From an uncultured Kordiimonas sp. (GTDB lineage Bacteria > Pseudomonadota > Alphaproteobacteria > Sphingomonadales > Kordiimonadaceae), in the NCBI GenBank assembly GCA_947503625.1, contig CANNEK010000004.1:124001-188000 (forward strand): 64,000 bases of DNA. Reading direction: 5' to 3'. Every line of letters begins with the position of its first letter. Positions within the stretch are counted from its first letter, which is position 1. Below the pieces are notes generated by a model. It saw only the letters and a list, made by a program, of their open reading frames with translations. It did not search any database and was not told where the DNA came from. Both the position numbers and the translations under genes were made by a program. Positions 26,681 through 50,339 of the stretch are shown here, piece after piece.

Positions 26681-27826
26681 CTAGTCGATTTTCTTTTCGT
26701 AAACACGATAGGTTTTGTAGACCTTGCAGCCAATCTCTTCGAGGATTGAACGCATGCCATCATTATCTTCCAGTATCCAGCCAAGTTCCCCCCAGTAAGC
26801 TCCACGTTTTTCCACGTGCTGGCGGCTGACATCAATCATCCACATTGACATCGCTGCCCCCAGGGGTCCGCGCTGGAATTTTTTCCGAACTCCCATCAAC
26901 GGCACACGACACCTGTTTTCCTTGCCGTTCAACATTCTGTAGGCAAGCTTGAATATGCCGAAAGGGAACAAGTTTCCGTTCAGATCACTTATCTTGTGAT
27001 TGACATCCGGGATCGTCAGCATGAAAGCCACGGGTTCACCGTCATATTCACAGATATAGGTTCGATACGGTTTCACTACCGGTTTGAGGCTTTTGGCACC
27101 GTGCTCTACTTCTTTTTCTGTGAAAGGCACATAACCCCAGTTATCCGACCATGCCTCATTATAAATATCGAGAACGACTGCGACCTCTTCATCGAAGCGT
27201 TTCATATCGATAGGACGCATGGATACCCGTTTGTTCTTTTGCGCCATTTTGACGATACGCATCGCCCGGTCAGGCATCGGAATCGTCAGGTCCAGAGAAT
27301 AGGCGAACATATCTTTGGTTTTGTCGAAACCGTCGGCCTTGAGCCAACTGTCATATTCGGGTCTGCCATGAGGCATCATCACGCAGGGCGGTGTATCGAA
27401 GCCGTCAACCAGAGTGCCGACTTCTTCGGCGCTTGAGAGCGACCAGGGTCCTTGCATGCGCTTCATACCTTTGCTCTTCAACCACATTCCAGCGGTAGAT
27501 AGGAGGTGTTCTGCAACAGCATCGTCGGTCGCTTCAAAAAAACCAAAATGGCCTAAATCGGGGCCCCACTTTTCCTGCGCAAGCTGGTCTACCTGTGCAC
27601 TGATTCTGCCAACAAGCCGACCATTGCGTTCTGCTATCCACATCGCGACGTCGGCATGCTCAAAATACGGGTTTTTGTCGGCGCGAAGCGCATCCATACG
27701 CTCCATCATCAACGGCTGAACCCAGTTTGGGTCGTCAGCGTAAACAGTACGTGTCACATTGACAAAATCTTTGAGGTCTCTGTTGTTGCTGACTTGGCGC
27801 AGCATGACGTCTGATGGCGCTGACAC
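26681..27826 (-). CDS. GNAT-fold N-acyltransferase, candidate bacterial ceramide synthase
   Basis: About 381 residues with a GNAT-like fold. The N-terminal part has the pattern FVNVTRTVYADDPNWVQPLMMERM; the middle holds AMWIAERNGRLVGRISAQVDQ and a GPWSLSSAEEVGTLVDGFDTPP loop; the C-terminal half is a second acetyltransferase-like lobe (CEYDGEPVAFMLTIPDVN). In Caulobacter the bacterial ceramide synthase belongs to this acyltransferase class and is linked to serine palmitoyltransferase, so the same role (N-acylation of 3-ketosphinganine) is proposed from context. The GTG start at 27826 has GGGA nearby; ATG 27805 is the alternative. It is the last gene of a minus-strand run with the desaturase, flippase and lptGF. 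Confidence 0.68.
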   Translation of the reverse strand: MSAPSDVMLRQVSNNRDLKDFVNVTRTVYADDPNWVQPLMMERMDALRADKNPYFEHADVAMWIAERNGRLVGRISAQVDQLAQEKWGPDLGHFGFFEATDDAVAEHLLSTAGMWLKSKGMKRMQGPWSLSSAEEVGTLVDGFDTPPCVMMPHGRPEYDSWLKADGFDKTKDMFAYSLDLTIPMPDRAMRIVKMAQKNKRVSMRPIDMKRFDEEVAVVLDIYNEAWSDNWGYVPFTEKEVEHGAKSLKPVVKPYRTYICEYDGEPVAFMLTIPDVNHKISDLNGNLFPFGIFKLAYRMLNGKENRCRVPLMGVRKKFQRGPLGAAMSMWMIDVSRQHVEKRGAYWGELGWILEDNDGMRSILEEIGCKVYKTYRVYEKKID

Positions 27827-27935
27827 GTGTGCATTCCCGCTTGGTGGTTGTCTTAAGCTGTCTTGGATAGACAATTGACCAGTTTTTGCAAGGTTGTTTG
27901 ACGTATCTGGATGTATGTAGCCAGTCAAAAGTGAG

Positions 27936-29042
27936 CTAGGTCTGTTGTGCAGCTTTAGATTCCCGCCAAAGCTGTACGACGGCGGCCCACAGGCTTTTTC
28001 TGCTGGCTGCGAGATAAAGCCGATTATCTGGCAGTCCATTTTTCAGTAGAAAATAAGCTTTCTCAAGCGAATGATAGGGCATACCGGGAAACAGGTGATG
28101 TGTTGCGTGAAAGCGAAGGCCGACGGGGGCCCAGAGGCTCGAGATATATCGATTGCCGGGAACATCAACACTGTCGAGGAATTCTTCCTGCTGCGTCATA
28201 CGCTCGCGGCCACCGTTTCTGTAGGCATGTGCAGCAAGTGTACGCAGGCCATTCAAAACAAAAATTGCGAAAGTAACCACATACCAGACGCCAAAAAACA
28301 AGAGCGGCAGGATATCAAAATAAAACAGCGCAAACGCAGTGTAAGCGTATAGGCCGGTTAATGTGTCTTCTATAAGCCAGCTTGCCTCCTGATCTTTTTT
28401 AGGGAGAGGGCGCACATAGGCGAAGTCGATAACAAGGCTGCTGGCGCGCTGCCAGATATAGTTGCGGAAGCGCTTGTTAAGTAGCGTAAGGGGCATCAGA
28501 ACCGAGTATCGGGCAACGAGCAGCGGTGGCACGATAAAAGCCTGCACGATGAAGGCAATAATTTTCCAGGGCTTATCTACCGCGAATGGCAGATACTCTC
28601 CGTCTTCTGCGGTACCATAGTGTTGCGGTTTGTGATGATCGATATGAACATCAGCATAAGTGTATGCTGGCACCATCATGGGCATGCCACAGGTTGCGTT
28701 CCAGAAGCGACGGAACCACGTGAATGTTCCCTTGCGGAAATGAGCAAGTTCATGGATGAAAATGACCGAGCGATAGAGCGCAAGTGTTGCTATAATAATT
28801 GCGATGACTTGTGCAATTGACGCTATCGGCGTTAGAACGGCAGTTGCGACCGCCGCCCAGCCGATGATTGTACTTATGGAAAAGTCTGTCCAGTATATCC
28901 GTGCATCCGGTTTCCAAAGGTCACGAACCAGACGGCGTGCTTCTTTGAGCGGGAAGTTCTCCGCCTCGGGGTGTGCACCTGATTTCACGGCGGCTTTCAT
29001 GCCGCCGTCTATCTGTTCTTTTTTCAGTGCAACTTGCATCAT
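27936..29042 (-). CDS. Membrane fatty-acid desaturase/hydroxylase family protein
   Basis: A 368-residue membrane di-iron enzyme. The three histidine boxes are HELAH (about residue 97), HIDHH (about 133) and HATHH (about 305), separated by hydrophobic spans as expected for the desaturase superfamily. The protein would insert a double bond or hydroxyl into an acyl or sphingoid chain. Position between the ceramide-synthase candidate and the flippase suggests the substrate is the sphingolipid; this is inference. A double ATG follows AGGTGAG; the first is used. A 69-base gap separates it from the flippase gene. Confidence 0.88.
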   Translation of the reverse strand: MMQVALKKEQIDGGMKAAVKSGAHPEAENFPLKEARRLVRDLWKPDARIYWTDFSISTIIGWAAVATAVLTPIASIAQVIAIIIATLALYRSVIFIHELAHFRKGTFTWFRRFWNATCGMPMMVPAYTYADVHIDHHKPQHYGTAEDGEYLPFAVDKPWKIIAFIVQAFIVPPLLVARYSVLMPLTLLNKRFRNYIWQRASSLVIDFAYVRPLPKKDQEASWLIEDTLTGLYAYTAFALFYFDILPLLFFGVWYVVTFAIFVLNGLRTLAAHAYRNGGRERMTQQEEFLDSVDVPGNRYISSLWAPVGLRFHATHHLFPGMPYHSLEKAYFLLKNGLPDNRLYLAASRKSLWAAVVQLWRESKAAQQT

Positions 29043-29111
29043 TTTGTTTTCTCACCTGAGTGGCGCATTGGCTTTGTATTCAGTGTCGATACGATGGCTT
29101 AAGTTTCGGTA

Positions 29112-30665
29112 TTATCCAAACTTTCCGCTTAGAAACCGTCCGAGCTTGCCTAAGGCAGCAGCATCGTCTGTTTTAAGGCCAAAACGAACCAGTAAAAGTA
29201 GTGCGACAATAAGCCCGAATATGGCGGTTATAAGGCCCATCGGAGATGGAAGGTCAGGGCCAAAATCAGCAAAAACAACGATAAGAACCGCAGACATAAG
29301 CGAAATAAGGAGTGGTTTCAAGATGTCGGCGGTGTAGGGAAATAGCTTGAACAGAAAAACTGCCTGAAAAAAAGCGAGGTAGGCGGTAATGTTCAAACCA
29401 ATTGCTGCAGCGATTGCTGCGCCTGTAACGCCGTTTTCCGGGATTTGTACCCAGCCAAGCCAAACGAAAACAGTTAAACCAATTACGCCGTTTAATGGCG
29501 GTAACGAGCGGTGCCCCAGCATTTCCACAATAGAGAAAGATGGCCCGCTTGCAGCCTCCAGAACGCGGCCAGCCACAAGAATGGCGATTGCCGCTGCTGC
29601 AGCTTGAAATTCGGGTTCAAGCGCTGACAATATATCGCTCCGCGCGAGATACAGCGCCGCACCGAAGGGTAGGGCAAGGCATACCGACATCCGGGTAGCG
29701 TACGCATACATATGTTCAAGTCTGTGCTTGTCGCCCTTGCCGTCTTTTTCTGCAGCAAGGGGTGCCATGACATACTCGAAGGCTAGCCTGACCACCTGTA
29801 GAGCGCTGGCAAGTTTTCTGGCGACTGAATAGTAGCCACCTGCCGCCGCACCTGCTGCGCCGGGTAACATGAAGTTCAGCAGCATTACGGGAAACTCGCT
29901 AAACAGTTTCTTGATCAGGTTCGATGGCATAACAGAGAAGCCATACTTCCTCATGTCTCTAGCTATTGTCCCCGTCAGGGGTGCACGCAGGACAGCGCGA
30001 AAGTCATAGTGGCGCGCAACAAGCCTGACAGCCAGACAGGCGGCCAAAATTACGCTAAGCAAGTGCGCTAAGAAAAGTCCGTAAGTATCTAAACCAATAG
30101 CAAAAAATATAACCGCTGCTACCAGACGCAGTCCCTGTTCATAGAAAATTCTTACCCGAATTTCTGGGCCGAATTTTCGGCGCGCGCGAATGGCTGCTGT
30201 GCCAACTTCAACGGTAGTCCAGAACGGTAAAACCCAAACATAGAGCCGGATTACATCGGTCAGGTGTTTCTGGTCAGCGCTACCAACATTGATAAAGGAT
30301 GAAATAGACGGCGCGTAGTAGGTGCCGATGGCAGCAAAGACGACGGCGATCAGGAAGCTTAGTTTAAGCGCAAAACCTGCTACATCAGCTTCCTGGTCTT
30401 TTGCAACACGAGGCACGAACCGCTGCAAGGTTGTCGTCATCGCAGCGTCGGACAGGGCTGTGGTGACTTTTACATAGCTCCAGAGAACTGCAAAAAGTCC
30501 GAAGGTTTCCGCACCGTAAGCCCATGTGAACACGACAACAGAGACAGCTTCAATAAGAGCGCCCAATCGTCCAAGGAAGGCAAGGCCAGCTCCGCCGGCA
30601 ACCTGGCGAATATCACTGGCTGTTTCTTCCGGCTTGGATTGTCTTTTTTGTTCAGGCTGCGCCAT
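29112..30665 (-). CDS. Polysaccharide/lipid flippase of the MOP (Wzx-like) superfamily
   Basis: A 517-residue integral membrane protein with about twelve to fourteen hydrophobic segments and the layout of Wzx-type exporters (for example VAGGAGLAFLGRLGALIEAVSVVVF at the start and PGAAGAAAGGYYSVARKLASALQ in the middle). Such proteins flip lipid-linked material across the inner membrane. The ATG at 30665 overlaps the lptG stop by one base (TGATG); a TTG one codon upstream is not needed. Translational coupling to lptG and the sphingolipid context suggest a sphingolipid or glyco-sphingolipid substrate (inference). Confidence 0.82.
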   Translation of the reverse strand: MAQPEQKRQSKPEETASDIRQVAGGAGLAFLGRLGALIEAVSVVVFTWAYGAETFGLFAVLWSYVKVTTALSDAAMTTTLQRFVPRVAKDQEADVAGFALKLSFLIAVVFAAIGTYYAPSISSFINVGSADQKHLTDVIRLYVWVLPFWTTVEVGTAAIRARRKFGPEIRVRIFYEQGLRLVAAVIFFAIGLDTYGLFLAHLLSVILAACLAVRLVARHYDFRAVLRAPLTGTIARDMRKYGFSVMPSNLIKKLFSEFPVMLLNFMLPGAAGAAAGGYYSVARKLASALQVVRLAFEYVMAPLAAEKDGKGDKHRLEHMYAYATRMSVCLALPFGAALYLARSDILSALEPEFQAAAAAIAILVAGRVLEAASGPSFSIVEMLGHRSLPPLNGVIGLTVFVWLGWVQIPENGVTGAAIAAAIGLNITAYLAFFQAVFLFKLFPYTADILKPLLISLMSAVLIVVFADFGPDLPSPMGLITAIFGLIVALLLLVRFGLKTDDAAALGKLGRFLSGKFG

Positions 30666-31849
30666 CAAGCTTCCGGCGCTGACGGAATTGCAATTGTCGG
30701 AGCCTGTTTTTTACGGGCGCGTCGTTGCGGTTTACCTTCTTCCGTATAGAAGATAACCGTGTAACCAACGAGCAGGAATAGAAAGAAGGGTGCCCAGGCT
30801 GCCAGAAATGGCGGAGCAACACCAAATTCACCCATAGCCAGCATGAAGTTGTCTGCAACGAAAAAGCTGAAACCCAACGCCATTCCAAAAACCAACCTGA
30901 TAACAAGGTTACCCGTACGCGAAACGCCAAATGCAGCCACGGCCGCGAGGAGTGGCATTAGGAGAGTTGAGGCTGGCGCGGCTATTTTCTGAAGAAAACT
31001 GGACATCAAACGGTCAGTTGACAAACCTTCCTCTTCAAGTCGTTTCATCGAACGCCATAGTGTGGGCAATGACACCTGATCTGCTTTGACAGTAAGTGCA
31101 AGGAAGCGTTCAGGGCGCGTTGGAATGGCCCATGGTACTGACGGCGTTACAGACAAAACGTGGGAATTCGCATCAAACCGCCGGACTTCATGCAATGTCC
31201 AGTTGCCTTCCTGATACCAGGCGAAATCTGCTTTAACCATCGCCTGCACCTTACCGAGTTCGTCCCGTTCAAATATCGAGACCTGGTCCAGAACGACCCG
31301 GTTTCGCACAGTGCTGACAGACTCAACCAGAACGATGCTGTTTCCCTCTCTCAACCACGTTCGCCCGGCGAGATTGTTGTTTTCGGGCAGGTCAATCGCA
31401 TAGTCATTATCCTGCCAGTACTCCAAATCGGCATTCGCCCTGGTGACAATCGTTTCGTTGAACAGAAAATGGGTAACCCCGATCAGTAACGATGCAATGC
31501 CGAGCGGCAACAGGATACGATGCGCGGAAAGGCCACTAGCCTTCATCACTGTTACTTCACTGCTTTGGTTAAGTGTGGCGAGTGTCAGCAGGGTAGCCAG
31601 CAAGGCTGCAAAGGGCGCAAACTGGCTGACCAGTTGGGGGGCACGCATGCTCACATAGGATATGATAGATATCCAGGTCGCTCCCTGAGCTGCCATTATG
31701 TCGTCAGCGGTCGCAAGCAGATCAAGCATTTGCAAGACGACTGTCAGGCCTATAAGGATGCCGAAAAAACGGCTGAGGTGCATTTTCACCATGTAGCGCG
31801 CCAGTGTGCGTGAAGGCACCAGCAATCGTCTGGCGGCGCGCACAATCAT
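30665..31849 (-). CDS. lptG: LptG-like permease (YjgP/YjgQ family)
   Basis: A 394-residue permease with three N-terminal and three C-terminal transmembrane helices flanking a periplasmic beta-jellyroll (about 100-290). Features are the LARYMVKMHLSRFFGILIGL entry helix, the coupling helix region SSEVTVMKASGLSAHRILLPLG, and WLREGNSIVLVESV in the jellyroll. LptG normally pairs with LptF and the LptB ATPase to extract LPS. Here it sits in a ceramide locus, so it may be a paralogue devoted to sphingolipid export. It overlaps lptF by four bases (ATGA). Confidence 0.85.
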   Translation of the reverse strand: MIVRAARRLLVPSRTLARYMVKMHLSRFFGILIGLTVVLQMLDLLATADDIMAAQGATWISIISYVSMRAPQLVSQFAPFAALLATLLTLATLNQSSEVTVMKASGLSAHRILLPLGIASLLIGVTHFLFNETIVTRANADLEYWQDNDYAIDLPENNNLAGRTWLREGNSIVLVESVSTVRNRVVLDQVSIFERDELGKVQAMVKADFAWYQEGNWTLHEVRRFDANSHVLSVTPSVPWAIPTRPERFLALTVKADQVSLPTLWRSMKRLEEEGLSTDRLMSSFLQKIAAPASTLLMPLLAAVAAFGVSRTGNLVIRLVFGMALGFSFFVADNFMLAMGEFGVAPPFLAAWAPFFLFLLVGYTVIFYTEEGKPQRRARKKQAPTIAIPSAPEA

Positions 31850-33057
31850 GGTTGATCTCCCAACCCAAACATTTTCCGGCCAAGGCGCTTGATTGGCCCA
31901 GCCACGGTGGACACAGCCTTGTCGATATATGCAAGGGGTTCGCCGCCCGCTTTAAAGGCTGAAACCCTGAAGAAAAACAGGCTTATGAAAGCGAAAACGG
32001 CAAACAGGGCCCAAATCGTGAGGTATGGTGATGCACCGCCTTTAACGGCAGTTTCCATGCCCTCCATCAATTCGTTGTAAACGATCAGCAGGGACAAGCC
32101 GATGACGATGCCTGTACCCCTTCCTGTTCTTTTATTGGTGATGCCCATTGGGATGGCCAGAAATGGCAAAATGAAAAATGACAGGCTATGCATTAATCGC
32201 CAGTGAAAGTTTCCCTGAAAAGCCGCTCTTTCTTCAATGGAGTTAAGAGGGTTTCCCATTTCTACAAACAATTCAGGAAATGTCATCTCCAGTTCCTGGC
32301 CGCCGCGCTCTCTAAAAACCTCCCTTTGAGGCAGTTTGATTGTCAAATCCTGCCGTTCGAAGCTGAGGACACGGGGTTTGTTTTGGCTTTCGTTCAGGTC
32401 TACCAGCACACCATTGAAGAGCCGAAGGAGGATTGTTTGATCGTCGTCTGTCGCAAAAAAGCCACCCCTTTCTGCCGTTACAGCAATACTACTGCGTTCA
32501 TCGCGGCGTTCCAGAAAAATACCAGCAAGTTCAGCACCTTGATTGCGAGATTCTTCTATCATCAAAGTAATTTCATCGCCAATTTCGACAAACTCCCCCA
32601 CCCTGATACTTGCGCCCAGGGCGCCGCTTCGCAGGTCAAAAACCAAACCGCGATATGCATAGCGACTATGTGGTTGAACCCAGCCGACCAAAATCGTGTT
32701 CACTATCGCCAGAAATGCGGCGAGCATCAAAAGAGGTCTAACCAGCTGTGGCAGGCTTGTTCCAGAAGAAGTTATCGCGTCATATTCGCTTGAAAGCGAT
32801 ATCTTGCGGAAGGCTACCAGCACTCCTAGTAACAGGCCGACAGGCAAGGCAAGCCCCATATAGTGGGGTGTCAGATTGGCGAGCATGCGAAACACAACTT
32901 CAACGGGCCCACCCTGATTGACGACAAAGTCGAACAGCTTGAGCATGCGTTCCAGAATCAACAGTAATGCGGCGACGCCTAATGTCAGGAACATTGGCGT
33001 TAGTACCTGTTTTAGTACATAGCGATCAATACGCGTCAGGATGGGGCTAATGGTCAT
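31846..33057 (-). CDS. lptF: LptF-like permease (YjgP/YjgQ family)
   Basis: A 403-residue partner of the LptG-like protein. It opens with IDRYVLKQVLTPMFLTLGVAALLLILERMLKL, has the coupling region ISLSSEYDAITSSGTSLPQLVRPLL, a periplasmic jellyroll (about 130-270), and C-terminal helices including FFILPFLAIPMGITNKRTGR. It is the first gene of the minus-strand run lptF-lptG-flippase-desaturase-GNAT. No lptA, lptB, lptC or lptD is in the window. The region 33058-33239 between it and the DUF2141 gene should carry divergent promoters. Confidence 0.86.
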   Translation of the reverse strand: MTISPILTRIDRYVLKQVLTPMFLTLGVAALLLILERMLKLFDFVVNQGGPVEVVFRMLANLTPHYMGLALPVGLLLGVLVAFRKISLSSEYDAITSSGTSLPQLVRPLLMLAAFLAIVNTILVGWVQPHSRYAYRGLVFDLRSGALGASIRVGEFVEIGDEITLMIEESRNQGAELAGIFLERRDERSSIAVTAERGGFFATDDDQTILLRLFNGVLVDLNESQNKPRVLSFERQDLTIKLPQREVFRERGGQELEMTFPELFVEMGNPLNSIEERAAFQGNFHWRLMHSLSFFILPFLAIPMGITNKRTGRGTGIVIGLSLLIVYNELMEGMETAVKGGASPYLTIWALFAVFAFISLFFFRVSAFKAGGEPLAYIDKAVSTVAGPIKRLGRKMFGLGDQP

Positions 33058-33239
33058 AGCTTGCCGCTACACTGGTTCAGCGCTTGTTTCAAGAGGCATT
33101 TAAGGATATTCCCAGCATTAGTAGTGGAGAAAAAAGGCATAGTTTCTTCAAATCGCAATAATTTGAGTCATAATTTTGCCACCATCAAGCGGCTATCTCA
33201 GCCATATTGATCATTCGTTTGTCTAACATGGAGGGCTAC

Positions 33240-33818
33240 ATGCCTGCGAATTATGGACTGAATACGGCAAAGGTCAATTCTGTCTTTGGGACAGCGTTGG
33301 TTGTTGCCATTGGTCTATTAACAACGACCAGAGTTGTCGCAGATGATGTGCCAACGAAAATCGATGGATCAAACGTCGCAGGCACTGGATGTGTTGCCGG
33401 GCCTGGCGAGGCCGCAATTGAGGTTTCGGTGGAAAACCTCCAGACTCGGGAGGGGCAGGTTCGTGCCCAAATCTATAGCTCAGACCCAGATGAATTCCTG
33501 GAAAAAGGTAAAAAACTGGTGCGTGTTGACCTTCCTATTGAGGAGGACGGCGAGCCGGTTCTGTGCGTTCCTTTACCGTCGCCGGGCACATATGCGCTGG
33601 TCGTGATGCATGACAAAAACGCGAATGGCCGCGCGGACTTTTTCTCCGAAGGCTTCGGTTTTTCGAATAACCCCAAGTTGTCTCTGGGTCCACCTGATGG
33701 TGAAGAGGTTATGTTTACTGCCTCTGCAGGTGTCAGCAAGCACGAGATCGAACTCAATTATATCTTTGGTGGTGACGAGGAAAAGAAAAACAAACGCCGA
33801 AAGCTAAAGAGACGCTGA
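33240..33818 (+). CDS. DUF2141 domain-containing exported protein
   Basis: A 192-residue exported protein: a signal peptide spans about residues 1-36, ending near RVVADD, followed by a beta-sandwich of the DUF2141 family. Family hallmarks are GQVRAQIYSSDPDEFLEKGKK and the Asp-rich loop MHDKNANGRADFFSEGFGFSNN. The C-terminus is very basic (KKNKRRKLKRR). ATG 33240 is chosen for its GGAGGG site; the longer TTG frame has none. It has its own terminator. I recall a gene at this position being required for anionic ceramide phosphoglycerate formation in Caulobacter; that should be checked. Confidence 0.82.
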   Translation: MPANYGLNTAKVNSVFGTALVVAIGLLTTTRVVADDVPTKIDGSNVAGTGCVAGPGEAAIEVSVENLQTREGQVRAQIYSSDPDEFLEKGKKLVRVDLPIEEDGEPVLCVPLPSPGTYALVVMHDKNANGRADFFSEGFGFSNNPKLSLGPPDGEEVMFTASAGVSKHEIELNYIFGGDEEKKNKRRKLKRR

Positions 33819-33870
33819 TATTGAAATTCAGACGATATGCGAGTATGCATGCCGACAGATACAGCAGGGT

Positions 33871-33897
33871 ACGGGGCCGGATTGGTCCCGTTTCTTT
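33871..33897 (+). terminator. Rho-independent terminator after the DUF2141 gene
   Basis: ACGGGGCC (33871-33878) pairs with GGTCCCGT (33884-33891) through one G-T wobble, with a 5-base loop, then TTTCTTT. It separates the DUF2141 transcript from the kinase operon, which must therefore have a promoter in 33898-33952 or be reached by read-through. Confidence 0.78.
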
Positions 33898-33952
33898 ATG
33901 AAGGCGTTCGGTTTCCTATAGTTTACCGTGTGCGGTTGGAGTTTCTGCATTC

Positions 33953-34954
33953 ATGCAGGTCGAAAAACATACTGTCGAAAGTGGTGCAACTGTCCCCTTG
34001 GTGGTGATGATATCCAATCCGCTCAGCACGACCAATGCCAAATCTCTGGATGATATCCGGGCGATAGTGAATTCAAGTGCGAATGTCGTGCATTATGAAC
34101 TTGACGGCATTGAAAGCCTCAAGGATGCACTTGAATTGTTTTCCCGGGCTAATCCGGCCATGTTGGTCATTAACGGCGGAGACGGGACGATCGGCGCAGC
34201 ACTGGCATCGCTTCTTTATAACAACCCGTTTGACGTAATTCCTCCAATTGCTTTCTTGCCCGGCGGAAAAACCAACATGACCGCCGCCGATTTGGGTTTC
34301 AAAGGAAAACCAACCAGAGTCCTTAAAAAGCTTCTGAAATTGGCGCAGACAGGAGAAATTCCAAACTCTTTGACACGGCGCCATCTGATTGAGATGGATC
34401 TGGGGGATGGCTCAACACCTAAAGTTGGTACTTTTTTTGGGACTGCGGGCATTGTTCGGGGAATTTTTTGGTGCCGGGAAAACGCGTATGCCAAAGGGCT
34501 GCCGAACGCGGTTGCCCACATCTGGTCTGCGTACAAGTTAATTACGTCTGCCCTTGGCCTTTCTCGCACGAAAGGCCTTATGATATCAGAACCCATGTCT
34601 ATTACCGTACCCGGTAGCGCACGCATTAAGGGACGCTATTCCATTGTGATGGTGACGACGCTTAATAAATTGCTGTTTGGCGTCAAGCCTTATGGGCGCG
34701 ACGGCAGCGGCGGATTAAGGTTCTCGGCGTTTGAGGCTGGCCCGGGGACGCTGGTACGTTCTTTCTTTGGCCTGATTTCAAAAAGGTTTGGCAACAGCTA
34801 TATCAAAGGCTTGCACGTTCGTAAAAGTAATCAGGTCCGGGTTGAAGGCACTGACCCCGTGACGCTTGATGGTGAGATTTATCAGCCAATACCTGATAGA
34901 CCTGTTGTTCTCAAAGGCGACAGGTCTCTTTCGTTTGTGTCGCTAAAAAAATGA
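33953..34954 (+). CDS. cpgB: LCB5-type lipid kinase, candidate ceramide kinase
   Basis: A 333-residue cytoplasmic kinase of the diacylglycerol/sphingosine-kinase fold. The nucleotide-binding signature is NGGDGT (Gly75-Gly76-Asp77-Gly78), followed by PGGKTNMTAADLG, which replaces the usual GTGNDFA loop, and the C-terminal VTLDGEIYQP turn. The altered loop fits the distinct bacterial ceramide-kinase clade described from Caulobacter (CpgB). Its position beside spt supports phosphorylation of ceramide rather than diacylglycerol. The symbol is by family and context. Its stop overlaps the next start (ATGA), so the two proteins are probably made together. Confidence 0.75.
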   Translation: MQVEKHTVESGATVPLVVMISNPLSTTNAKSLDDIRAIVNSSANVVHYELDGIESLKDALELFSRANPAMLVINGGDGTIGAALASLLYNNPFDVIPPIAFLPGGKTNMTAADLGFKGKPTRVLKKLLKLAQTGEIPNSLTRRHLIEMDLGDGSTPKVGTFFGTAGIVRGIFWCRENAYAKGLPNAVAHIWSAYKLITSALGLSRTKGLMISEPMSITVPGSARIKGRYSIVMVTTLNKLLFGVKPYGRDGSGGLRFSAFEAGPGTLVRSFFGLISKRFGNSYIKGLHVRKSNQVRVEGTDPVTLDGEIYQPIPDRPVVLKGDRSLSFVSLKK

Positions 34955-35940
34955 ACAGCCAACGCACGAAAAATGACGTCGCGGACACCGCGACTATCTC
35001 GTCTGACAAAGCATTGGTAGACTTTGTGCTGGCGGAATGGGACAGAGAAATTCCAGAGGCGGTAACTGCGGCAGCTGACGACATTACAGCGCGTTATGGA
35101 GATGCTGTGCTCGGCGTCTTGTTTTATGGCTCGTGTTTGCGAACAGGCGAGATCGAGGACAAAATACTCGACTTTTATGTGGTCGTTGAAGACTATCATT
35201 TGGCCTATCAAAATCGCTGGCTTGCTTTGGCAAATCAGATTTTGCCGCCAAATGTATTTTATCACGAAATCGATGTAGACGGTATGACAGTCCGATCAAA
35301 ATATGCTGTTGTCTCCGCAGCTGATTTGCGCTTTCGAGCAAGCGCCGCCTGCATGAACGTTTCTATCTGGGCACGCTTCTGCCAGCCCTGCATGTTGGTT
35401 CGACCCAGGTCAGACGCAGCTAAGGCGGAAATCTCCATAGATGTAGCTGCAGCTATATGCACCATGCTTAGCAATCTGCTGGAACTCAAACCGTGGGCCA
35501 CCAGTTCACGCGATCTTTGGGTTGCTGCATTCGAAGAAACCTATGCAGCCGAATTGCGTTCTGAGAGGGGAGGAAAGGGGTTGGAGATATACCTTCTGGA
35601 CCAGTCCCGTTATGATGAATTGACGCCAATTGCCCTTAATGTACTAGGAATTCCGGAACAAGCACGAGACTCGTCCCCGCCAGCTACGCAACCATCAAGA
35701 ACCGATAATTTTCAGGCGAAGTTTTCGTGGGCCATGCGCCGAACCAATGGAAAGCTTGTCAGTTTCCTCAGGCTGGTAAAGGCATCTATGACGTTTGATG
35801 GTGGTATCGATTATCTCGCATGGAAAATCCGCAGGCACTCGGGTGTCGATGTCGAGATAAAGGATTGGATGCGCAAACATCCCATTATTGCAGGGGTTGT
35901 ACTGTTCTGGAACCTGCGGAAAAAAGGCGCATTTCGCTAA
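34951..35940 (+). CDS. Tam41/Mmp37-like CTP:phospholipid cytidylyltransferase
   Basis: A 329-residue protein with a nucleotidyltransferase core like mitochondrial Tam41, which makes CDP-diacylglycerol from phosphatidate. The Gly-Ser pair is Gly60-Ser61 in LFYGSCLRTG. The metal-binding aspartate is Asp74 in ILDFYVVVEDYHLAYQNRW, and the third segment is VFYHEIDVDGMTVRSKYAVVS. Only one acidic residue is obvious in the DhD position, as Tyr occupies the second. The C-terminal helical domain is divergent. Coupled to the lipid kinase by a four-base overlap, it could convert ceramide 1-phosphate to CDP-ceramide; this step is inferred. It converges on spt with a 15-base gap. Confidence 0.65.
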   Translation: MNSQRTKNDVADTATISSDKALVDFVLAEWDREIPEAVTAAADDITARYGDAVLGVLFYGSCLRTGEIEDKILDFYVVVEDYHLAYQNRWLALANQILPPNVFYHEIDVDGMTVRSKYAVVSAADLRFRASAACMNVSIWARFCQPCMLVRPRSDAAKAEISIDVAAAICTMLSNLLELKPWATSSRDLWVAAFEETYAAELRSERGGKGLEIYLLDQSRYDELTPIALNVLGIPEQARDSSPPATQPSRTDNFQAKFSWAMRRTNGKLVSFLRLVKASMTFDGGIDYLAWKIRRHSGVDVEIKDWMRKHPIIAGVVLFWNLRKKGAFR

Positions 35941-35955
35941 CACGCCTTCAGTTTG

Positions 35956-37155
35956 CTAATCAATATTCAGGCCGACAATCTCAGCCGTACGTTTGAAGCG
36001 AGCTATGATTTCACTGATTTGCTCACTTGTATGCTGAGCGCACACGCTGATTCTCAGCAGGAACATGCCGGCTGGCGTTGCAGGCGGCGCAGCCATGTTG
36101 GCATAAACGCCCTCGAACAAAAGAGTTTCCCAAAACCGTGTGCCTATCATTACATCAGGCAGGTGAACCGCAATGATCGGGCTCTCGGCCTCGTCGGTAC
36201 ACATGTTGAAGCCTGCTTTTTTCAGGCCCGTATGCAGTTGACGGGCATTTTCCCAAAGATGGGCGCGCCTGTTACCACTGCGCCTGATCGCCTCGATAGA
36301 CTTGGTGGCTGAAGCCACCACGCTTGGTGGCAGGCTGGCGGTAAAAATGTAGGGACGGCTGACAAACCGCAGAACGTCGAACTTTGGGTGGCTGGAAACA
36401 GCGAACCCACCAACGGTGCCAACCGATTTGGAGAATGTGCCGACATAAAAATCGACCATATGTTCGACACCCAACTCTTCGGCAACACCACGACCGTTTT
36501 CACCGGAAAACCCCATTGAATGGGCCTCATCAACCAGCGTCATACAGCCATATTTTTTTCCGACCTCCAGCAATTCCTTGAGTGGGGCGGCATCACCCAG
36601 CATCGAATAGATGCCTTCCACGACAAGGAGTTTGCCCGCATCCTCAGGTAGCCGCTTCAAACGGCGTTCAAGGTTTTCCGCGTCATTGTGCTTGAAGCGA
36701 ACGATGGTTGCGTTGCCCATTGAGCATCCGTCATAGATAGAGGCATGACTGTCGGCATCTATAATAACATAATCGTCTTTTCCGCCGAGAGCTGAAATCA
36801 TGCCCAGGTTGGCCTGATAGCCTGTGGAGAAGACCATGCAGTGTTCCATGCCGTAAAAGTCTGCGATTGTTGCTTCAAGGGCCTTGTGACCACCATAGGT
36901 GCCATTAAGGACACGAGAGCCTGTGGTGCCTGTACCAAAGTCGTCAAGCGCGGTTTTGGCGGCTTCCAGAGCTTCCTCGTTAAAGGTCATGCCCATATAA
37001 TTGTTTGTGCCCGCCAAGATTGTGTGACGACCACTTATGACTGCCTCTGTCTCAGAGATCACTTCATCGATAACAACTTTGAAAGGATCGGCCTTTTCAA
37101 ATGGTAGCGACGCGCGCAAGTCGACAATCGAGTCAAATTTATCAAGTAAATCCAC
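35956..37155 (-). CDS. spt: Serine palmitoyltransferase
   Basis: A 399-residue PLP enzyme of the alpha-oxoamine synthase family; Spt condenses serine with an acyl thioester to give 3-ketosphinganine. Signatures are NNYMGMTFNE, GTGTTGSRVLNGTYGGHKALE, DADSHASIYDG, VDEAHSMGFSGENGRG and the PLP lysine Lys243 in GTFSKSVGTVGG. KBL and ALAS relatives share this fold, but the adjacent dedicated ACP, ceramide reductase-like SDR and acyl-ACP synthetase point to Spt. It begins with GTG eight bases after the acpR stop; TAGGA of that stop region supplies the ribosome site. Confidence 0.88.
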   Translation of the reverse strand: MDLLDKFDSIVDLRASLPFEKADPFKVVIDEVISETEAVISGRHTILAGTNNYMGMTFNEEALEAAKTALDDFGTGTTGSRVLNGTYGGHKALEATIADFYGMEHCMVFSTGYQANLGMISALGGKDDYVIIDADSHASIYDGCSMGNATIVRFKHNDAENLERRLKRLPEDAGKLLVVEGIYSMLGDAAPLKELLEVGKKYGCMTLVDEAHSMGFSGENGRGVAEELGVEHMVDFYVGTFSKSVGTVGGFAVSSHPKFDVLRFVSRPYIFTASLPPSVVASATKSIEAIRRSGNRRAHLWENARQLHTGLKKAGFNMCTDEAESPIIAVHLPDVMIGTRFWETLLFEGVYANMAAPPATPAGMFLLRISVCAQHTSEQISEIIARFKRTAEIVGLNID

Positions 37156-37163
37156 GGGAGTTC

Positions 37164-37409
37164 CTAGTTTTCGCCAACAATTTTTTCGACAGCATCCGCA
37201 ACCTGACCAACTGTTTCGAGATCAGGGAGCATGTTCAGAGGCAGGACAATATCAAACTCGTCCTCAATTTCTGCCACCAGGTCCATTACCGTCAAACTGT
37301 CCAGTTCAAGATCAACTGCAAAAGTGGTTTGCGGCGCCAGCTCAGCATCCTTTTTATTAAGTGGAGCTATCAAACCGTATATCGTTTCCAGAGTTTTTGC
37401 CTGCGCCAT
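37164..37409 (-). CDS. acpR: Acyl carrier protein dedicated to sphingolipid synthesis
   Basis: An 81-residue acidic carrier protein. The phosphopantetheine site is Ser39 in ELDSLTVMDL, followed by VAEIEDEFDIVLPLNML, the usual second helix. It lies directly upstream of spt in the same operon, and in Caulobacter a dedicated ACP (AcpR) in the same place delivers the acyl chain to Spt. A GGCGGA site precedes the ATG. The symbol rests on gene order. Confidence 0.87.
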   Translation of the reverse strand: MAQAKTLETIYGLIAPLNKKDAELAPQTTFAVDLELDSLTVMDLVAEIEDEFDIVLPLNMLPDLETVGQVADAVEKIVGEN

Positions 37410-37485
37410 TTTATCCGCCCATGTTGTTGTGTGTACTTCAGTTCAAAGTACGTTGATATGCTCTCTTATATCTGTATGACCGTCA

Positions 37486-38442
37486 TCATAAAAGGTCATT
37501 TTTCCGATACCAGCCGAGCGTGTCTTCTAGGCCGGATTTAAGGTCAAATTGTGGTGACCATTTGGCGTGTTGGAAACGTCTTGGTTCCTTTACCGTCCAA
37601 TCCGGGTGGCACAGATATCTTGCAGTCGAAAGCGTTAGCATAAAAGGGCGACCAAGCCCCCGGGCGAGCAGGTCATTGAGGGCTCCAATGGCACCCAGAG
37701 CAACAAAAGGAACAGGAATAACCCGTATTTTACTTCGCTCTGCGCCGGGCAGTGACCTTGCTACATCCCGAATATCATAGCCGCCAGTTTTTCCGTCATC
37801 AATCTCGACAATGGCTTGCTTGTTGCTTTTGTCACAAAGAGCCACCAGCGCGGACGCCAGATCCGCAGCATGTATCATTGAAAAGCGATTGGTTCTGCCA
37901 CCTGGTGCTGGCAGCATGCCAAATCTGGTGGCTTTGAAAAGCTTCAGAATTTCCTTGTCACCCGGACCATAAATTGCGGGAGGACGGATAATAGTCCATG
38001 AAAAATCCCATTTGCGCGCCGTGAGCAGCATCTCTGTACCCGCTTTGCTTGCGCCGTAATGTGAAAGGCGTGGCTCGCGCGCAGCAAGGCTTGATACATG
38101 GATGACATGATCAACCCCTGAAGCTTGTGCCGTTTTAAAAAGGGTTTTGCTACCCGCAACGTTCACGTCAAAGAAGGCGTCCCGGTTTATCGCTTTTGTC
38201 AGACCGGCCAGATGAATGAGGCAAGTACAATTTTCGGTGAGAGCAGTAAGGCTGGCTTCATCGTCCAGCGATCCTTCAACCCAGGTCAGGCCTTCAACAT
38301 CCTGCTGCGGGCGTCTTGTTAGCGCTTTTACCTGAAAACCTTCTTTTGTCAGAGCATGGAGCAGGTGCCCGCCAACAAATCCGGTTGCACCGGTGAGCGC
38401 TATCACTTCACCGTTTTCATTCTTTTTTGTAGTTGTCGGCAT
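37486..38442 (-). CDS. cerR: NAD-dependent epimerase/SDR, candidate ceramide reductase
   Basis: A 318-residue extended short-chain dehydrogenase. The cofactor loop TGATGFVGGHL is at residues about 18-28 and the catalytic Tyr/Lys are in HYGASKAG. The active-site serine region is HVSSLAA, and WTIIRPPAIYGPGD is typical of the epimerase group. In Caulobacter the enzyme in this slot (CerR) reduces the 3-keto group of oxidised ceramide. Substrate is inferred from operon position between aasR and acpR. GAGG precedes the ATG, and aasR is 13 bases upstream. Confidence 0.82.
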   Translation of the reverse strand: MPTTTKKNENGEVIALTGATGFVGGHLLHALTKEGFQVKALTRRPQQDVEGLTWVEGSLDDEASLTALTENCTCLIHLAGLTKAINRDAFFDVNVAGSKTLFKTAQASGVDHVIHVSSLAAREPRLSHYGASKAGTEMLLTARKWDFSWTIIRPPAIYGPGDKEILKLFKATRFGMLPAPGGRTNRFSMIHAADLASALVALCDKSNKQAIVEIDDGKTGGYDIRDVARSLPGAERSKIRVIPVPFVALGAIGALNDLLARGLGRPFMLTLSTARYLCHPDWTVKEPRRFQHAKWSPQFDLKSGLEDTLGWYRKNDLL

Positions 38443-38455
38443 TGTTGCCTCGCGG

Positions 38456-40204
38456 CTAGCTGGCGATCGCTTGTAGATGGCCAGACATATACTGATTACG
38501 TGCCTTGGTTCTGCTTAGCTTGCCAGAGGATGTTCTGGGCAGTGACTTAGGCGGCACGAGCTCAATTATGCAGTTAACTCCTGTTTCAGACTGAATTTGC
38601 TTCTTCAGCGCGTCAATCAACAGCAGCCGTTCCGAAGCATCTGAAATACGGCATTGTGCCAGGATAAGAGGTGTTTCTTCAGAGTTTTCACCCGGCACAG
38701 AAATTGCAGCAACATCGCCTTTTTTAAGGCCTTCAACCTGTTCAGCAGCCCACTCGATATCCTGAGGCCAATGGTTGCGACCATTCACAATAATCATATC
38801 CTTGGCGCGGCCAACAATGTAAATGCAGCTGTCTTTCATGTAACCCATGTCACCGGTATCAAGCCAGCCTTCAGGGCTGAGAACTTCGCGGGTCGTTTCG
38901 GGATCGTTAAAATATTCGCGCATAACGGATGTGCCGCGCAGATAAACCCGACCAACTTTACGGTCCGGCAAAGGAATGTCGCCTTCATCGCGAATCTCGA
39001 TTTCGTACTCGGGAAGCAGGCGGCCACAATTTACAACCTCCCGCATGCGGCTTTCGCCAGAGCCATTCACCAAAACGTGGCGATCACCTGTTAGGGCGGC
39101 CTCTTCAATCAAATCAACCTCGATGCCTTTTCCTACTTCACCGAAGCTGACACCCAAGGTACATTCCGCAAGGCCGTAACTCGGCAAGAACGCGTTATAT
39201 GAGAAGCCGATTTGGCCAAAGGTCTGCTGGAATTCTTTCATGACATCCGGGCGGATCATCTCGGCGCCGATGCCGGCAACCCGGACACTGGAGAGATCAA
39301 GTCCTTCCATGGCGCTGGCACGCATCGCTGCGCGGCGGGTGCAGATGTCAAAACCAAATGTTGGGCTATAGGTAATTGTGCCCTTGTTCCCGCTCAAAAC
39401 CCGAAGCCAGCTTAATGGCCGTCTCGCAAATTCCTCGGTTGGGATAAAGTCCACAGATATCTGGCAGGTAAGTGTCGTCAGCAGTGTTCCAACCAAGCCC
39501 ATGTCATGATAAAATGGCAACCATGAAACGCACCGATCATTTTCCTCAAGCTTGACACCATGATAACCCATGCCGTGGGTGTTGGCGAGCAACGAGCGGT
39601 GCGTCACAGATACTCCGTGAGGGAAGCGGGTACTGCCTGAAGAATACTGCAGATAGGCAAGGTCGTCCGGGGTTGGCAAAACAGGTTCGCCGTTACCCTC
39701 CGAATTCATGAACGCGTTGATGTCACCTTTGAAGGTTAGCTCCAGGCCGTCAGTCGCCTGAGCTGAAATTTCATCCATGAAAGATGGCGCCATCAAGCCG
39801 TTTGCCTTACAGCTCTCCATCTGCATACGCAGTTGAGAAACATAACCCTCTTTTCCACCAAAAGATGTTGGAAGCGGCAGGGGTACAGGCAGGACGCTGG
39901 CATACTGGCAACCGACAAAAAAGCTAACGAAGTTGGCGCTGGTTTCGGCGATCAAGGCAATCCGGTCGCCTTTTTTAAAACCCATGCCCACAAGTTTGCG
40001 GCCAATTGTCTCCGCGCGGTCGCGCACTTCAGCCCAGGTGATGGTTTCCATGACATCACCGCGGGCGTTATAAAAGTTGGCACCGCGCACGCCTTTTGCC
40101 GCATATTCGATTGCGTCAACAAGCGTATCAAAGTCTGAAAAGCGTCTTTCAAGAGACGGATCTAAAGTCGGTGTAACCACTGTCTGCACGTTGGAATCGA
40201 CCAT
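38456..40204 (-). CDS. aasR: Fatty acyl-AMP ligase / acyl-ACP synthetase
   Basis: A 582-residue AMP-forming enzyme of the FAAL type. The P-loop-like SSGSTRFPHGVSVTHRSLLAN, SWLPFYHDMGLVG, TGDMGYMKDSCIYIVGRAKDMI and the C-terminal lysine region RTSSGKLSRTKAR are all present. It would load a fatty acid on the neighbouring acyl carrier protein for Spt or ceramide synthase, like AasR of Caulobacter. It is the first gene of the aasR-cerR-acpR-spt operon. The 268-bp region 40205-40472 must hold its promoter and that of the divergent aminotransferase; no clear hexamers were identified there. Confidence 0.87.
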   Translation of the reverse strand: MVDSNVQTVVTPTLDPSLERRFSDFDTLVDAIEYAAKGVRGANFYNARGDVMETITWAEVRDRAETIGRKLVGMGFKKGDRIALIAETSANFVSFFVGCQYASVLPVPLPLPTSFGGKEGYVSQLRMQMESCKANGLMAPSFMDEISAQATDGLELTFKGDINAFMNSEGNGEPVLPTPDDLAYLQYSSGSTRFPHGVSVTHRSLLANTHGMGYHGVKLEENDRCVSWLPFYHDMGLVGTLLTTLTCQISVDFIPTEEFARRPLSWLRVLSGNKGTITYSPTFGFDICTRRAAMRASAMEGLDLSSVRVAGIGAEMIRPDVMKEFQQTFGQIGFSYNAFLPSYGLAECTLGVSFGEVGKGIEVDLIEEAALTGDRHVLVNGSGESRMREVVNCGRLLPEYEIEIRDEGDIPLPDRKVGRVYLRGTSVMREYFNDPETTREVLSPEGWLDTGDMGYMKDSCIYIVGRAKDMIIVNGRNHWPQDIEWAAEQVEGLKKGDVAAISVPGENSEETPLILAQCRISDASERLLLIDALKKQIQSETGVNCIIELVPPKSLPRTSSGKLSRTKARNQYMSGHLQAIAS

Positions 40205-41670: not shown

Positions 41671-42276
41671 ATGACTGACGACCATGAAGCTGGAGAATCT
41701 GCAAAAGTGGAAACTAAGCCGGCAAAAAAAAAGAAGGTTTCTGCAGCGTATCTTGAACGCGCGGCCTTTCATTATCTGGGCCGTTTCAATAGTTCAGAGA
41801 AAAACCTTCATAGTGTACTGGTTCGGAAGATAAGGCGCCGGAACGAAAACCACAGCGCGCCCAGTGGGGAACAGTTGGCGTGGGTCTCGGACGTTGTGTC
41901 CAAATGTGTGCGATATGGATATGTCAATGACGAGGCATATGCCAAACAGCGCACGGAGACTATGATACGCCGCGGTAAACCTCTCAGGGCGATGCGGCAA
42001 GACTTGCGCCATAAGGGAATTGATAGCGATCTGATTGAGTCTGCTCTCGCGGCCTTGGGAGAAGAAAGTGGCGCTGACACCGACAGGATTGCTGCAGCCG
42101 CTTACATCAAGCGCAGAAGATTTGGCGCATTCCGAAGAACTATCGAAAACCGGGAGGCGTTATCCGCGAAGCAGGAAAAGGAGTTGGCAGCGATGGCTCG
42201 GGCTGGTTTTGAGTATACGCTGTCGAGCGAATTGTTGTCCATGGAGATGGAGGAAATTAGCGAGCTGTTGGTTTAA
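41671..42276 (+). CDS. recX: RecX family regulatory protein
   Basis: A 201-residue helical protein of the RecX family, which modulates RecA filaments. Motifs are AYLERAAFHYLGRFNSSEKNL, GYVNDEAYAKQRTETMIRRGKPLRAMRQDL and KGIDSDLIESAL. A basic N-terminal extension (about 25 residues, KPAKKKKVS) is present, as in other alphaproteobacterial members. It is not next to recA. It lies one base after the class V aminotransferase, so they are probably co-transcribed, and its 3' end overlaps the convergent molybdenum gene by 20 bases. Confidence 0.85.
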   Translation: MTDDHEAGESAKVETKPAKKKKVSAAYLERAAFHYLGRFNSSEKNLHSVLVRKIRRRNENHSAPSGEQLAWVSDVVSKCVRYGYVNDEAYAKQRTETMIRRGKPLRAMRQDLRHKGIDSDLIESALAALGEESGADTDRIAAAAYIKRRRFGAFRRTIENREALSAKQEKELAAMARAGFEYTLSSELLSMEMEEISELLV

Positions 42277-43855
42277 CGCCAAATTGAGCAAGCATTTCCG
42301 GCGTGTCCAGATCGATAAGAATTCCGGGGTCCTGAACCGGTACTTCAATAATTTTTTCTCTATGATGATACATCACATTTCTGCCGCCAACGTCACCCGA
42401 CAAGCGAGATAATTCCGGTATGAATTTACTGTCCCACAAAACGGGATGGCCTCGTTTTCCGTTGAAGGTCGGCACTATGATAGCGCTACTGTTCTGTGTT
42501 TTTGCCGTTGCCATGAGAGCCTTTAGCGTTGCAGGCTGTACAAAGGGCATATCAGCCAGACAAATGAATACATAGTCGCTCTCGGGCCGTATCGCGCTGA
42601 TGCCCTCAGCGATACTGCTACCCATGCCAGATTTAAAATCCTTGTTGTGAACAACGTCAACAGCCAGGCCTTTTGTGCAGGCTTCGATTTTTTCGCGTGC
42701 ATCACCTGTCACCACCACTGTATTCATCGCTCCCGCACTTTCAATGGCTGACAGTGTCGCGGAGATGACCGGTGTATCGCCGATCAAAGAAAGTAACTTG
42801 TGAGCGCTTTCCGCTCTGGTCGATCGACCTGCGGCGAGCACAATAGCGGCAAAACCGGGCGAATCGCTGCCCTTTGAGAACGCATTGTCCGTTCGCGGAA
42901 CACGTCTGCCGACAGGTTCTTTGAGCAATCCGCCGGTCCCCATGGAGGCTATGATATCTTTGTCGAGTTTTAGTTTTGCTGCGTATCTCTGCAGAACCCA
43001 GTCAAAGCCATTGAGGGAAGGCGAACGGGCGCATCCCGGCAGTCCGATAACCATTTTTGTGCCAAGCGCTCCAAGCATCAGCAGGTTACCGGGGTCTGCC
43101 GGCATTCCCAATTTTTCGATCGAGCCTCCCGCTGAAAGCAAGGCCGCGGGCAGAGTGTCGCGGATATCGCTGATAGCTGAAGCACCTAGCATCAAAATTA
43201 AATCTGCGTTGGTTTTCGCCGATGAGTGAAGCATGTTTGTGACGTCGGTGACGGTATGCAGAACTTGATATGATGAGACGATGTTACCCTTTACGCTGTT
43301 GATCCGTTTCTCAAGAACAGTTCGCGTCTTTTCGGTCATGTCATTGCCGCTTGAAATCAGGGCAGCTTCGAACGGCATGAATTCGGCAACACGACATTTT
43401 TCAAGGCTATCTGTATCTTGCAGCACTGACTTTGCAACGCCATACGGAACAAGTTTGATCGTTGCCACAAGTTGGCCCGTGTGCACGACCGAAAATGGCC
43501 GAAGGGACGCAGCAGAGAAAGCGTCGTCAAGGGTGTTTAGGTCGTCTATTGCCTGGTGCGGAATAAAAATACCGTCAACGTTAGAGATCAGGTTGGCGCG
43601 TCCGCGACCCTCAAGAGTAACCGCAAGGTTGTCGCCGCAAATCAATTTAGCCGCCACTTTTGCCGCAGTATCTTCGTCATAGTCGTGCTCGTCCAGACGA
43701 AAAACCTGCACAGACGTTACTCCTGACTGAAGCAAGTCATCAATGATTTCCTCAGACAGAATAGTGCCTTTTGCCAGTCGTCTGGAGCCACACGCCACGC
43801 TATGCGCAAGCGACCAACCAAAAGAGGCTTCAACGCTTCTCTCTTCAAACTGCAT
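42257..43855 (-). CDS. Fused molybdopterin-binding domain / MocA-type cytidylyltransferase
   Basis: A 532-residue fusion. Residues about 1-330 are a MoeA/MogA-like molybdopterin-binding module (SSGNDMTEKTRTVLEKRI, LILMLGASAISD, IGLPGCARSPSLNGFDW). Residues about 340-532 are a MobA/MocA-like nucleotidyltransferase with AAIVLAAGRSTRAE (the pyrophosphorylase loop), CLADMPFVQPATL and KRGHPVLWD. MocA enzymes make the cytosine dinucleotide form of the molybdenum cofactor used by xanthine-oxidase-family enzymes. The xdhC gene 18 bases upstream on the same strand fits this. No molybdo-hydroxylase structural gene is in the window. Confidence 0.85.
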   Translation of the reverse strand: MQFEERSVEASFGWSLAHSVACGSRRLAKGTILSEEIIDDLLQSGVTSVQVFRLDEHDYDEDTAAKVAAKLICGDNLAVTLEGRGRANLISNVDGIFIPHQAIDDLNTLDDAFSAASLRPFSVVHTGQLVATIKLVPYGVAKSVLQDTDSLEKCRVAEFMPFEAALISSGNDMTEKTRTVLEKRINSVKGNIVSSYQVLHTVTDVTNMLHSSAKTNADLILMLGASAISDIRDTLPAALLSAGGSIEKLGMPADPGNLLMLGALGTKMVIGLPGCARSPSLNGFDWVLQRYAAKLKLDKDIIASMGTGGLLKEPVGRRVPRTDNAFSKGSDSPGFAAIVLAAGRSTRAESAHKLLSLIGDTPVISATLSAIESAGAMNTVVVTGDAREKIEACTKGLAVDVVHNKDFKSGMGSSIAEGISAIRPESDYVFICLADMPFVQPATLKALMATAKTQNSSAIIVPTFNGKRGHPVLWDSKFIPELSRLSGDVGGRNVMYHHREKIIEVPVQDPGILIDLDTPEMLAQFGVKPTAR

Positions 43856-49981: not shown

Positions 49982-50339
49982 TCAAAACCTCGTTCAAACT
50001 CTGTCTGACAGGTCGGCGATCAGTGACCACAGTCTGTCAGGAAGCTAACGACACCCCAATGCATCAAAACACTCCATAACAAGGGCTTAAGGAGATTTAC
50101 AGCTTTTTCCTGCTACATGAGCAAGTCCTATTGAAAAGCACAATTAGAACAAGAAAAATACACGAATAAAGGTCTCTCTGGTTAGCATCGTCAGGCAGTA
50201 ATGATTGATGGGCCTTCAATGTGTCGTATGCCTCAAATTGATCAAATTTTTGCTTATCATTTACAGCTTGTTGAATTGTCTGCCATAATATTTCTGCATG
50301 GTGGTGGCCACGCTTGGGGCGTTGACTAGGGGTTTTATA
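49982..50339. other. Intergenic region before the M10 peptidase gene
   Basis: About 360 bp, AT-rich towards the right. A TAATAT -10-like element is present near 50286 but without a well-placed -35. No open frame, RNA gene or terminator was recognised. Confidence 0.4.

Follow-up and report, generated by a model that had tools for sequence, protein, structure and literature searches.

A sphingolipid gene cluster has been described in Caulobacter crescentus (CC_1168-CC_1152), where ceramide genes, a kinase, CpgC, a flippase, LptF2 and LptG2 are accompanied by CpgA (CC_1159), CpgD (CC_1152), CC_1153, CC_1158 and LptC2 (PMC11324152). How sphingolipids of bacteria get to the outer membrane is, according to two papers, not known (PMC11324152, PMC11087976). 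LptC2/F2/G2 and the flippase have been proposed as the sphingolipid transporters of Caulobacter, in which LptF2 and LptG2 are described as second versions beside those for lipopolysaccharide (LPS) (PMC11324152). Because the two versions coexist, the transport question is confounded in that organism. In this study, we examined by computational analysis a 64,000-nucleotide stretch (hereafter the window) from the 4.07 Mb genome, in 11 contigs, of an uncultured Kordiimonas sp., in which twelve adjoining genes (26681-40204) form a ceramide locus that also contains an LptF/LptG pair. It seems likely that this locus builds a ceramide lipid and exports it via the Lpt bridge, and that the lipid replaces LPS in an LPS-free lineage.

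Compared with the published description of the Caulobacter cluster, the locus is alike in its ceramide genes, kinase, CpgC, flippase, LptF2 and LptG2, but by gene map and synteny it has no relatives of CpgA, CpgD, CC_1153, CC_1158 or LptC2, and it holds a desaturase-like gene and a DUF2141 gene. Unlike Caulobacter, the host lineage lacks LpxC, so that its Lpt system should have no LPS cargo. The biosynthetic part is a short form of an already known kind of cluster, without the diphosphoglycerate genes; what is new is that the Lpt system retains a sphingolipid-type pair and no other, beside the lipid genes. Among the papers listed by our literature searches, which cover few subscription journals, we saw no treatment of LPS loss with retention of Lpt in this order.

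LpxC was detected above cut-off in none of 60 genomes of the order and none of 15 genomes of the family, with E. coli and Caulobacter vibrioides as positive controls; one partial match of 20.8 bits, below cut-off, occurred in genome G429. The host genome encodes exactly two PF03739 proteins, both in the locus. Among the 15 family genomes two such proteins were found in 10, one in G440, three in G423 and G442, four in G435 and five in G441, some of these counts involving contig ends. In the tree, the surplus LptF copies in G435, G423 and G441 fell within the cluster-linked type. Other parts of the bridge are widely retained, with LptD in 15/15 and LptC in 12/15 of these genomes; in the host they are found in the rows lptC-lptA-lptB-rpoN (holding the only LptC found) and lptD-surA-pdxA. 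Compared with the LPS exporter LptB2FGC-A-D, the host shares the LptF/LptG family and has LptC, LptA, LptB and LptD, but it lacks a non-cluster pair at the usual site as well as LpxC, and several LPS-contact residues are changed.

The usual site was recognized from genomes that carry both types of LptF/LptG. In G444 (Pelagibius marinus) and G451, both of this kind, pepA, lptF, lptG and lptD lie in a row, and the gene after the non-cluster LptG is surA in G175 and, by eye, in G271. In the host, 225 bp separate lptD from pepA (57% to that of Pelagibius), and this interval is empty. Sixteen genomes were compared for PF03739, of which six had four copies (G175, G271, G095, G444, G450, G451), nine had two, and G446 had two plus one below cut-off. 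In the LptF tree of 50 sequences, one branch separates six non-cluster sequences from the remaining 44, which include that of the window. A cluster-LptF profile scored 357-565 bits against cluster sequences, on which it was trained, 336-422 bits against the three extra family copies and 150-197 bits against the six non-cluster sequences. By both tree and profile scores, the host LptF does not group with the LptF of the pepA-lptD site. Given this empty site, the profile scores and the tree placement, the host lineage most likely lost its ordinary pair and retained the one of sphingolipid type. And with neither LpxC in the lineage nor a second LptF/LptG pair in the genome, the ceramide lipid of the locus most likely stands in for LPS and would be carried by the Lpt bridge. 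The sequence-only reading of this DNA had suggested export of a ceramide lipid; the case for this is stronger than it had proposed, in that the locus pair is the only LptF/LptG found in the genome of a lineage without LpxC.

The residues of LptF and LptG that contact LPS were compared as well. Cryo-EM contacts to one LPS phosphate involve LptG K34, K62, R133 and R136 and LptF R33, and those to the other phosphate LptG K40 and LptF K317 (PMC6744409). For the window, the family alignments give D, Q, E and Q at the first four positions, K at LptF 33, D at LptG 40 and E at LptF 317. It is at LptG 40/41 that the groups part. The five non-cluster LptG sequences (two of them near-identical and from one genus) carry R at position 40 in 4/5 and at 41 in 5/5, and the other sequences D at 40 in 47/77 and D/E at 41 in 54/77 (45/75 and 53/75 without two G450 sequences of unshown cluster membership); the window has DD. 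At LptF 317, E occurs in the window and in 37/63 cluster sequences and K/R in 11/63, the non-cluster counts being 0/5 for E, 1/5 for R and 0/5 for K. Sequence L227 (G450) was excluded from the residue counts.

Several points weigh against replacement of LPS by a ceramide lipid. Lipid A synthesis was judged by a single profile, that of LpxC. The branch of non-cluster LptF has a support of 83, not 95, by a quick method, with long branches for G450 and two other sequences. Outside the order, two Dongia genomes (G443, G445) and G093, G131 and G186 have CpgC clusters and only two LptF/LptG genes; these may be further LPS losses, or LPS may be carried there by the sphingolipid-type pair. As for the contact residues, it is the family alignment that puts the DD of the window at 40-41, and a pairwise alignment places it three residues earlier; K34 and R136 are missing from the non-cluster LptG as well (D34 in 4/5, E136 in 5/5); and E. 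coli suffers no harm from K40E/K41E (PMC5548808). The idea that lost LPS-phosphate contacts prove another cargo is weakened by the non-cluster sequences, the tolerated K40E/K41E and the unsure register, and the acidic LptG 40/41 and LptF 317 would be a subfamily signature rather than proof of cargo. Finally, the NCBIfam model TIGR04408 names the locus LptG an LPS permease (285 bits, cut-off 240). This name, and the retention of LptD, LptA, LptB and LptC, would fit an explanation in which LPS is made through a lipid A route that escapes the LpxC profile, the pair being an ordinary LPS pair lying beside ceramide genes by chance. We regard this as very improbable, considering the absence of LpxC above cut-off from all 60 genomes with positive controls, the cluster-linked subfamily of LptF and the lack of a pair at the pepA-lptD site.

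A different cargo would be another surface glycolipid, e.g. a glycosphingolipid made by unlinked glycosyltransferases, rather than a phospho-ceramide. There are 19/60 genomes of the order without a CpgC match, and as none of the 60 has LpxC, those 19 need another coat; in sphingomonads, sphingolipids functionally replace LPS (PMC11087976). However, in the window and in short-type loci (described below) the pair sits between the flippase and the CerK-CpgC block, and we consider this cargo unlikely.

An open reading frame (ORF) and profile survey recovered all twelve ORFs of the sequence-only reading, which adjoin one another as it had described. It had placed them in four transcription units; there are three strand blocks: 26681-33057 on the minus strand (CerS, desaturase-like, flippase-like, LptG, LptF), 33207-35940 on the plus strand (DUF2141, CerK, CpgC) and 35956-40204 on the minus strand (Spt, AcpR, CerR, AasR), and a fourth unit would need a split between DUF2141 and the kinase. 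Its gene families were confirmed for eleven of the twelve by profile, nine by Pfam above cut-off and two by matches below cut-off, and for the Tam41-like protein by a predicted model. The twelve genes are as follows.

26681..27808, minus strand: CerS-like GNAT N-acyltransferase (Acetyltransf_1 just below cut-off, 19.9 vs 20.7 bits; named from gene order)

27936..29042, minus strand: membrane desaturase/hydroxylase (PF00487), probable ceramide acyl hydroxylase (FA_desaturase, 101.8 bits)

29112..30668, minus strand: flippase-like membrane protein, CC_1166-like by the role proposed in Caulobacter (MatE below cut-off, 21.1 vs 24.9 bits)

30665..31849, minus strand: LptG of sphingolipid type, LptG2 (PF03739, 228 bits; TIGR04408, 285 bits)

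31846..33057, minus strand: LptF of sphingolipid type, LptF2 (PF03739, 216 bits; tree placement)

33207..33818, plus strand: DUF2141 protein (83 bits), likely signal peptide by eye, divergent from LptF2

33953..34954, plus strand: CerK/CpgB-like ceramide kinase (DAGK_cat, 48 bits; GGDG motif; adjoins CpgC)

34951..35940, plus strand: CpgC-like nucleotidyltransferase with Tam41 fold (predicted model)

35956..37155, minus strand: Spt, serine palmitoyltransferase (Aminotran_1_2, 183 bits; 551 bits to 2x8u; NF047599)

37164..37409, minus strand: AcpR, dedicated acyl carrier protein (PP-binding, 47 bits; DSL motif)

37486..38442, minus strand: CerR-like extended SDR reductase (Epimerase, 85 bits)

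38456..40204, minus strand: AasR-like fatty acyl-AMP/acyl-ACP ligase (AMP-binding, 188 bits; NF006624, 793 bits)

The same gene order was found again in relatives at about 35-91% identity. A relative of CpgC is present in 42/385 alphaproteobacterial genomes and in 41/60 genomes of the GTDB order, including 14/14 of the host family; the nearest named relative by CpgC is another uncultured Kordiimonas (L031, 73%). Because the order recurs in relatives and CpgC recurs across genomes, the locus is more than a chance arrangement.

Spt scored 551 bits against the serine palmitoyltransferase structure 2x8u, compared with 234 bits against 2-amino-3-ketobutyrate ligase (1fc4) and 184 bits against ALAS (7x98), and the latter two identities were rejected on scores. 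As far as scores tell, the grouping with either of them that would have refuted the sequence-only reading does not hold, and Spt is closer to serine palmitoyltransferase than to either of them or to BioF. In NCBIfam it matched NF047599 at 601 bits (cut-off 500) and NF047603 at 613 bits, below its cut-off of 670. AcpR, with the DSL motif in its translation, and the acyl-AMP ligase (NF006624 cut-off 600) lie in one block with Spt. Recurrence of the other genes was examined in 80 loci, the best 80 of at least 579 stretches matching the CpgC alignment A1 in one scan of named genomes. CerR orthologues are present in 43/80 loci; the Epimerase match is a general one and the name CerR comes from gene order. 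CerS-like orthologues occur in 59/80, with 77-88% identity in L031-L035. Taken at its longest (26681-28039), the CerS-like ORF runs into the desaturase gene; conservation sets in near 27808, which is probably close to the gene start. The Spt scores, gene set and order all support the earlier view of a Caulobacter-like ceramide locus with charging and export genes.

Judging from these families, AasR would load a fatty acid onto AcpR, Spt would condense the AcpR-borne fatty acid with serine, CerS and CerR would finish the ceramide, which the desaturase-like enzyme probably hydroxylates, and CerK would phosphorylate it. CpgC would then probably turn CTP and phospho-ceramide into CDP-ceramide, to which an acceptor would be joined, and the flippase-like protein and the sphingolipid-type LptF/LptG, with LptB, LptC, LptA and LptD encoded elsewhere, would carry the lipid to the outer membrane.

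The CerK-like kinase, with GGDG in its translation, is found in 70/80 loci, and no match was detected for it in the PDB by sequence. It lies side by side with CpgC, and both were named by place and fold, the Caulobacter proteins being known to us by description only. For CpgC, no family was matched in Pfam (at E 0.05) or NCBIfam, and its sole PDB match by sequence was 9xbd_E (E 0.041). Its predicted model shares the Tam41 fold across most of the chain with the Tam41 CDP-DAG synthase structures 7ecd and 6ig4, but at 14-15% identity and from within ceramide loci, so that we liken it to Tam41 by fold and do not file it as a family member. On the strength of this fold, CpgC probably uses CTP to make CDP-ceramide. 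A CTP-type activation by CC_1161 was suggested earlier from a domain match (PMC11324152), and the mechanism of the CpgC step is described as unidentified in another paper (PMC12275187).

The sequence-only reading held that the gene order preserves the whole pathway. This was not supported: in addition to the five genes missing from the locus, CpgA had no match in the host genome by profile search (model A2), and CpgD had generic matches only, the best of 41.8 bits over 70 residues. Elsewhere in the order, CpgA exceeded 370 bits in 10/60 genomes (0/14 of the host family), and CpgD reached at least 170 bits in 11/60, which include all 10 CpgA genomes. Because the host genome has neither CpgA nor a CpgD of the strength seen elsewhere, the locus would make at most the first head-group stage. 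Its product might also be ceramide phosphoglycerate (CPG) as in Caulobacter, with CpgC, alone or with an unlinked enzyme, attaching glycerate without free CDP-ceramide. Caulobacter needs CC_1161 and CC_1160 to form CPG, whereas CC_1159, CC_1158, CC_1153 and CC_1152 act in CPG2 (PMC11324152). CerK-CpgC is the only head-group pair recognized in the locus, and the two PF01066 proteins of the genome match the PgsA and PssA models. On the other hand, the Tam41 fold suggests a CTP-dependent reaction with a phospholipid substrate, and direct attachment was called energetically not very favourable by the Caulobacter authors (PMC11324152). We regard such a direct route as a serious possibility, somewhat short of even chances.

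Between CerS and the flippase, the window has the desaturase-like gene, whose product shows three His boxes when read by eye. In 34 loci this slot contains PF00487 in 4, the fatty acid hydroxylase family PF04116 in 13 and no recognized gene in 17; since L039/L167, L041/L168 and L047/L161 are the same genomes under two names, the counts per genome (n=31) are 4, 12 and 15. In L035, L045 (Kordiimonas marina), L056 and L057 the gap exceeds 400 bp and could hold something. The two families never occurred together in any of the 52 loci that hold CerS, CerK and CpgC. PF00487 genes also lie elsewhere near sphingolipid clusters, i.e., between RecX and MocA in L041 and L160, beside CerS in L159 and after CpgC in L060. 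In Caulobacter, hydroxylation of the amide-linked chain has been ascribed to an unlinked DesA-type gene, CC_0202 (PMC11324152). That two membrane oxygenase families swap in one slot supports ceramide hydroxylation as the putative role of both.

Two architectures of the cluster were distinguished. The short one, to which the window belongs, is found in Kordiimonadales, Iodidimonas and many Sphingomonadales loci. Loci of the long type come from Nitrospirota, Desulfobacterota, some gammaproteobacteria and, among alphaproteobacteria, Dongia and others. They are without the flippase and have further genes, all or part of a set made up of CpgA (PF01066), CpgD-like and CC_1153-like nucleotidyltransferases, a HIT-like protein and a metallophosphoesterase. 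The domains of these were verified with one or two examples of each, and the HIT-like one scored below cut-off. Within the 52 loci, 25 have a flippase without CpgA, 23 CpgA without a flippase, 4 neither (L091, L099, L102, L104) and none both; as the genomes are related, a p-value for these counts has no meaning. The flippase and diphosphoglycerate types are not exclusive per genome, an idea refuted by G399, G401 and G406, which have a flippase-type cluster and CpgA elsewhere. Orthologues of the flippase-like protein were found in 26/80 loci.

Among Sphingomonadales, the clusters of Sphingosinicella (L057, L106), Parasphingopyxis (L084) and Pacificimonas (L104, which has no flippase) share the short architecture, and the genomes of L104 and L106 have, like the host, only two LptF/LptG genes, both inside the cluster. 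They differ from the window in the slot beside CerS, which holds PF04116 (L084, L104) or nothing recognized (L057, L106), and their identity to it is mostly 35-66%.

DUF2141 is encoded in 26/52 loci with CerS, CerK and CpgC and in 22/25 flippase loci, and it also occurs near LptF2 without a flippase in L052, L089, L102 and L104 (of the 52) and in L097. Its model (pLDDT 80) had no clear fold match. From these locations, DUF2141 is likely to be associated with export. Most kordiimonad DUF2141 proteins end in a strongly basic C-terminal tail (KKRRKLKRR type), which those of sphingomonads and Iodidimonas lack.

The HIT-like protein was observed in 17 long-type loci (L049, L082, L089, L097, L098 and others), several of which place it between LptF2 and the metallophosphoesterase. 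In Caulobacter, CC_1157 occupies that place and has been called probably unrelated (PMC11324152); by its position, it may be a HIT-like protein rather than DUF2141. In addition, two CpgA-type CDP-alcohol transferases per cluster were noticed in L051, L055, L073, L074, L075 and L153, where one enzyme may use CDP-ceramide and the other CDP-glycerate.

Its upstream neighbours are a DEAD-box helicase and an ORF of 271 aa with no clear family; downstream of the locus come a class V aminotransferase, RecX and a MocA-like protein. The MocA-like nucleotidyltransferase (42257-43855, minus strand) has about 330 extra N-terminal residues, and in relatives its gene adjoins one that by eye resembles XdhC. 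Further along the window, two RTX calcium-binding repeat proteins are encoded on the plus strand (50298-52298 and 54492-56879), one with weak metallopeptidase matches and the other with FG-GAP repeats.

A more ambitious combination would be that the whole Lpt bridge is a sphingolipid exporter in a naturally LPS-free lineage, that the LptF/LptG lip has exchanged basic for acidic residues, and that the CDP-ceramide of CpgC is used by PgsA/PssA. We consider it doubtful that all these parts hold together; if they do, one enzyme set would add head groups to glycerolipids and sphingolipids alike. The Tam41 fold of CpgC by itself provides a concrete, assayable candidate activity for the head-group step. 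With LpxC gone and its one LptF/LptG pair tied to sphingolipid genes, the host lineage makes the cargo of the Lpt system testable in one organism.

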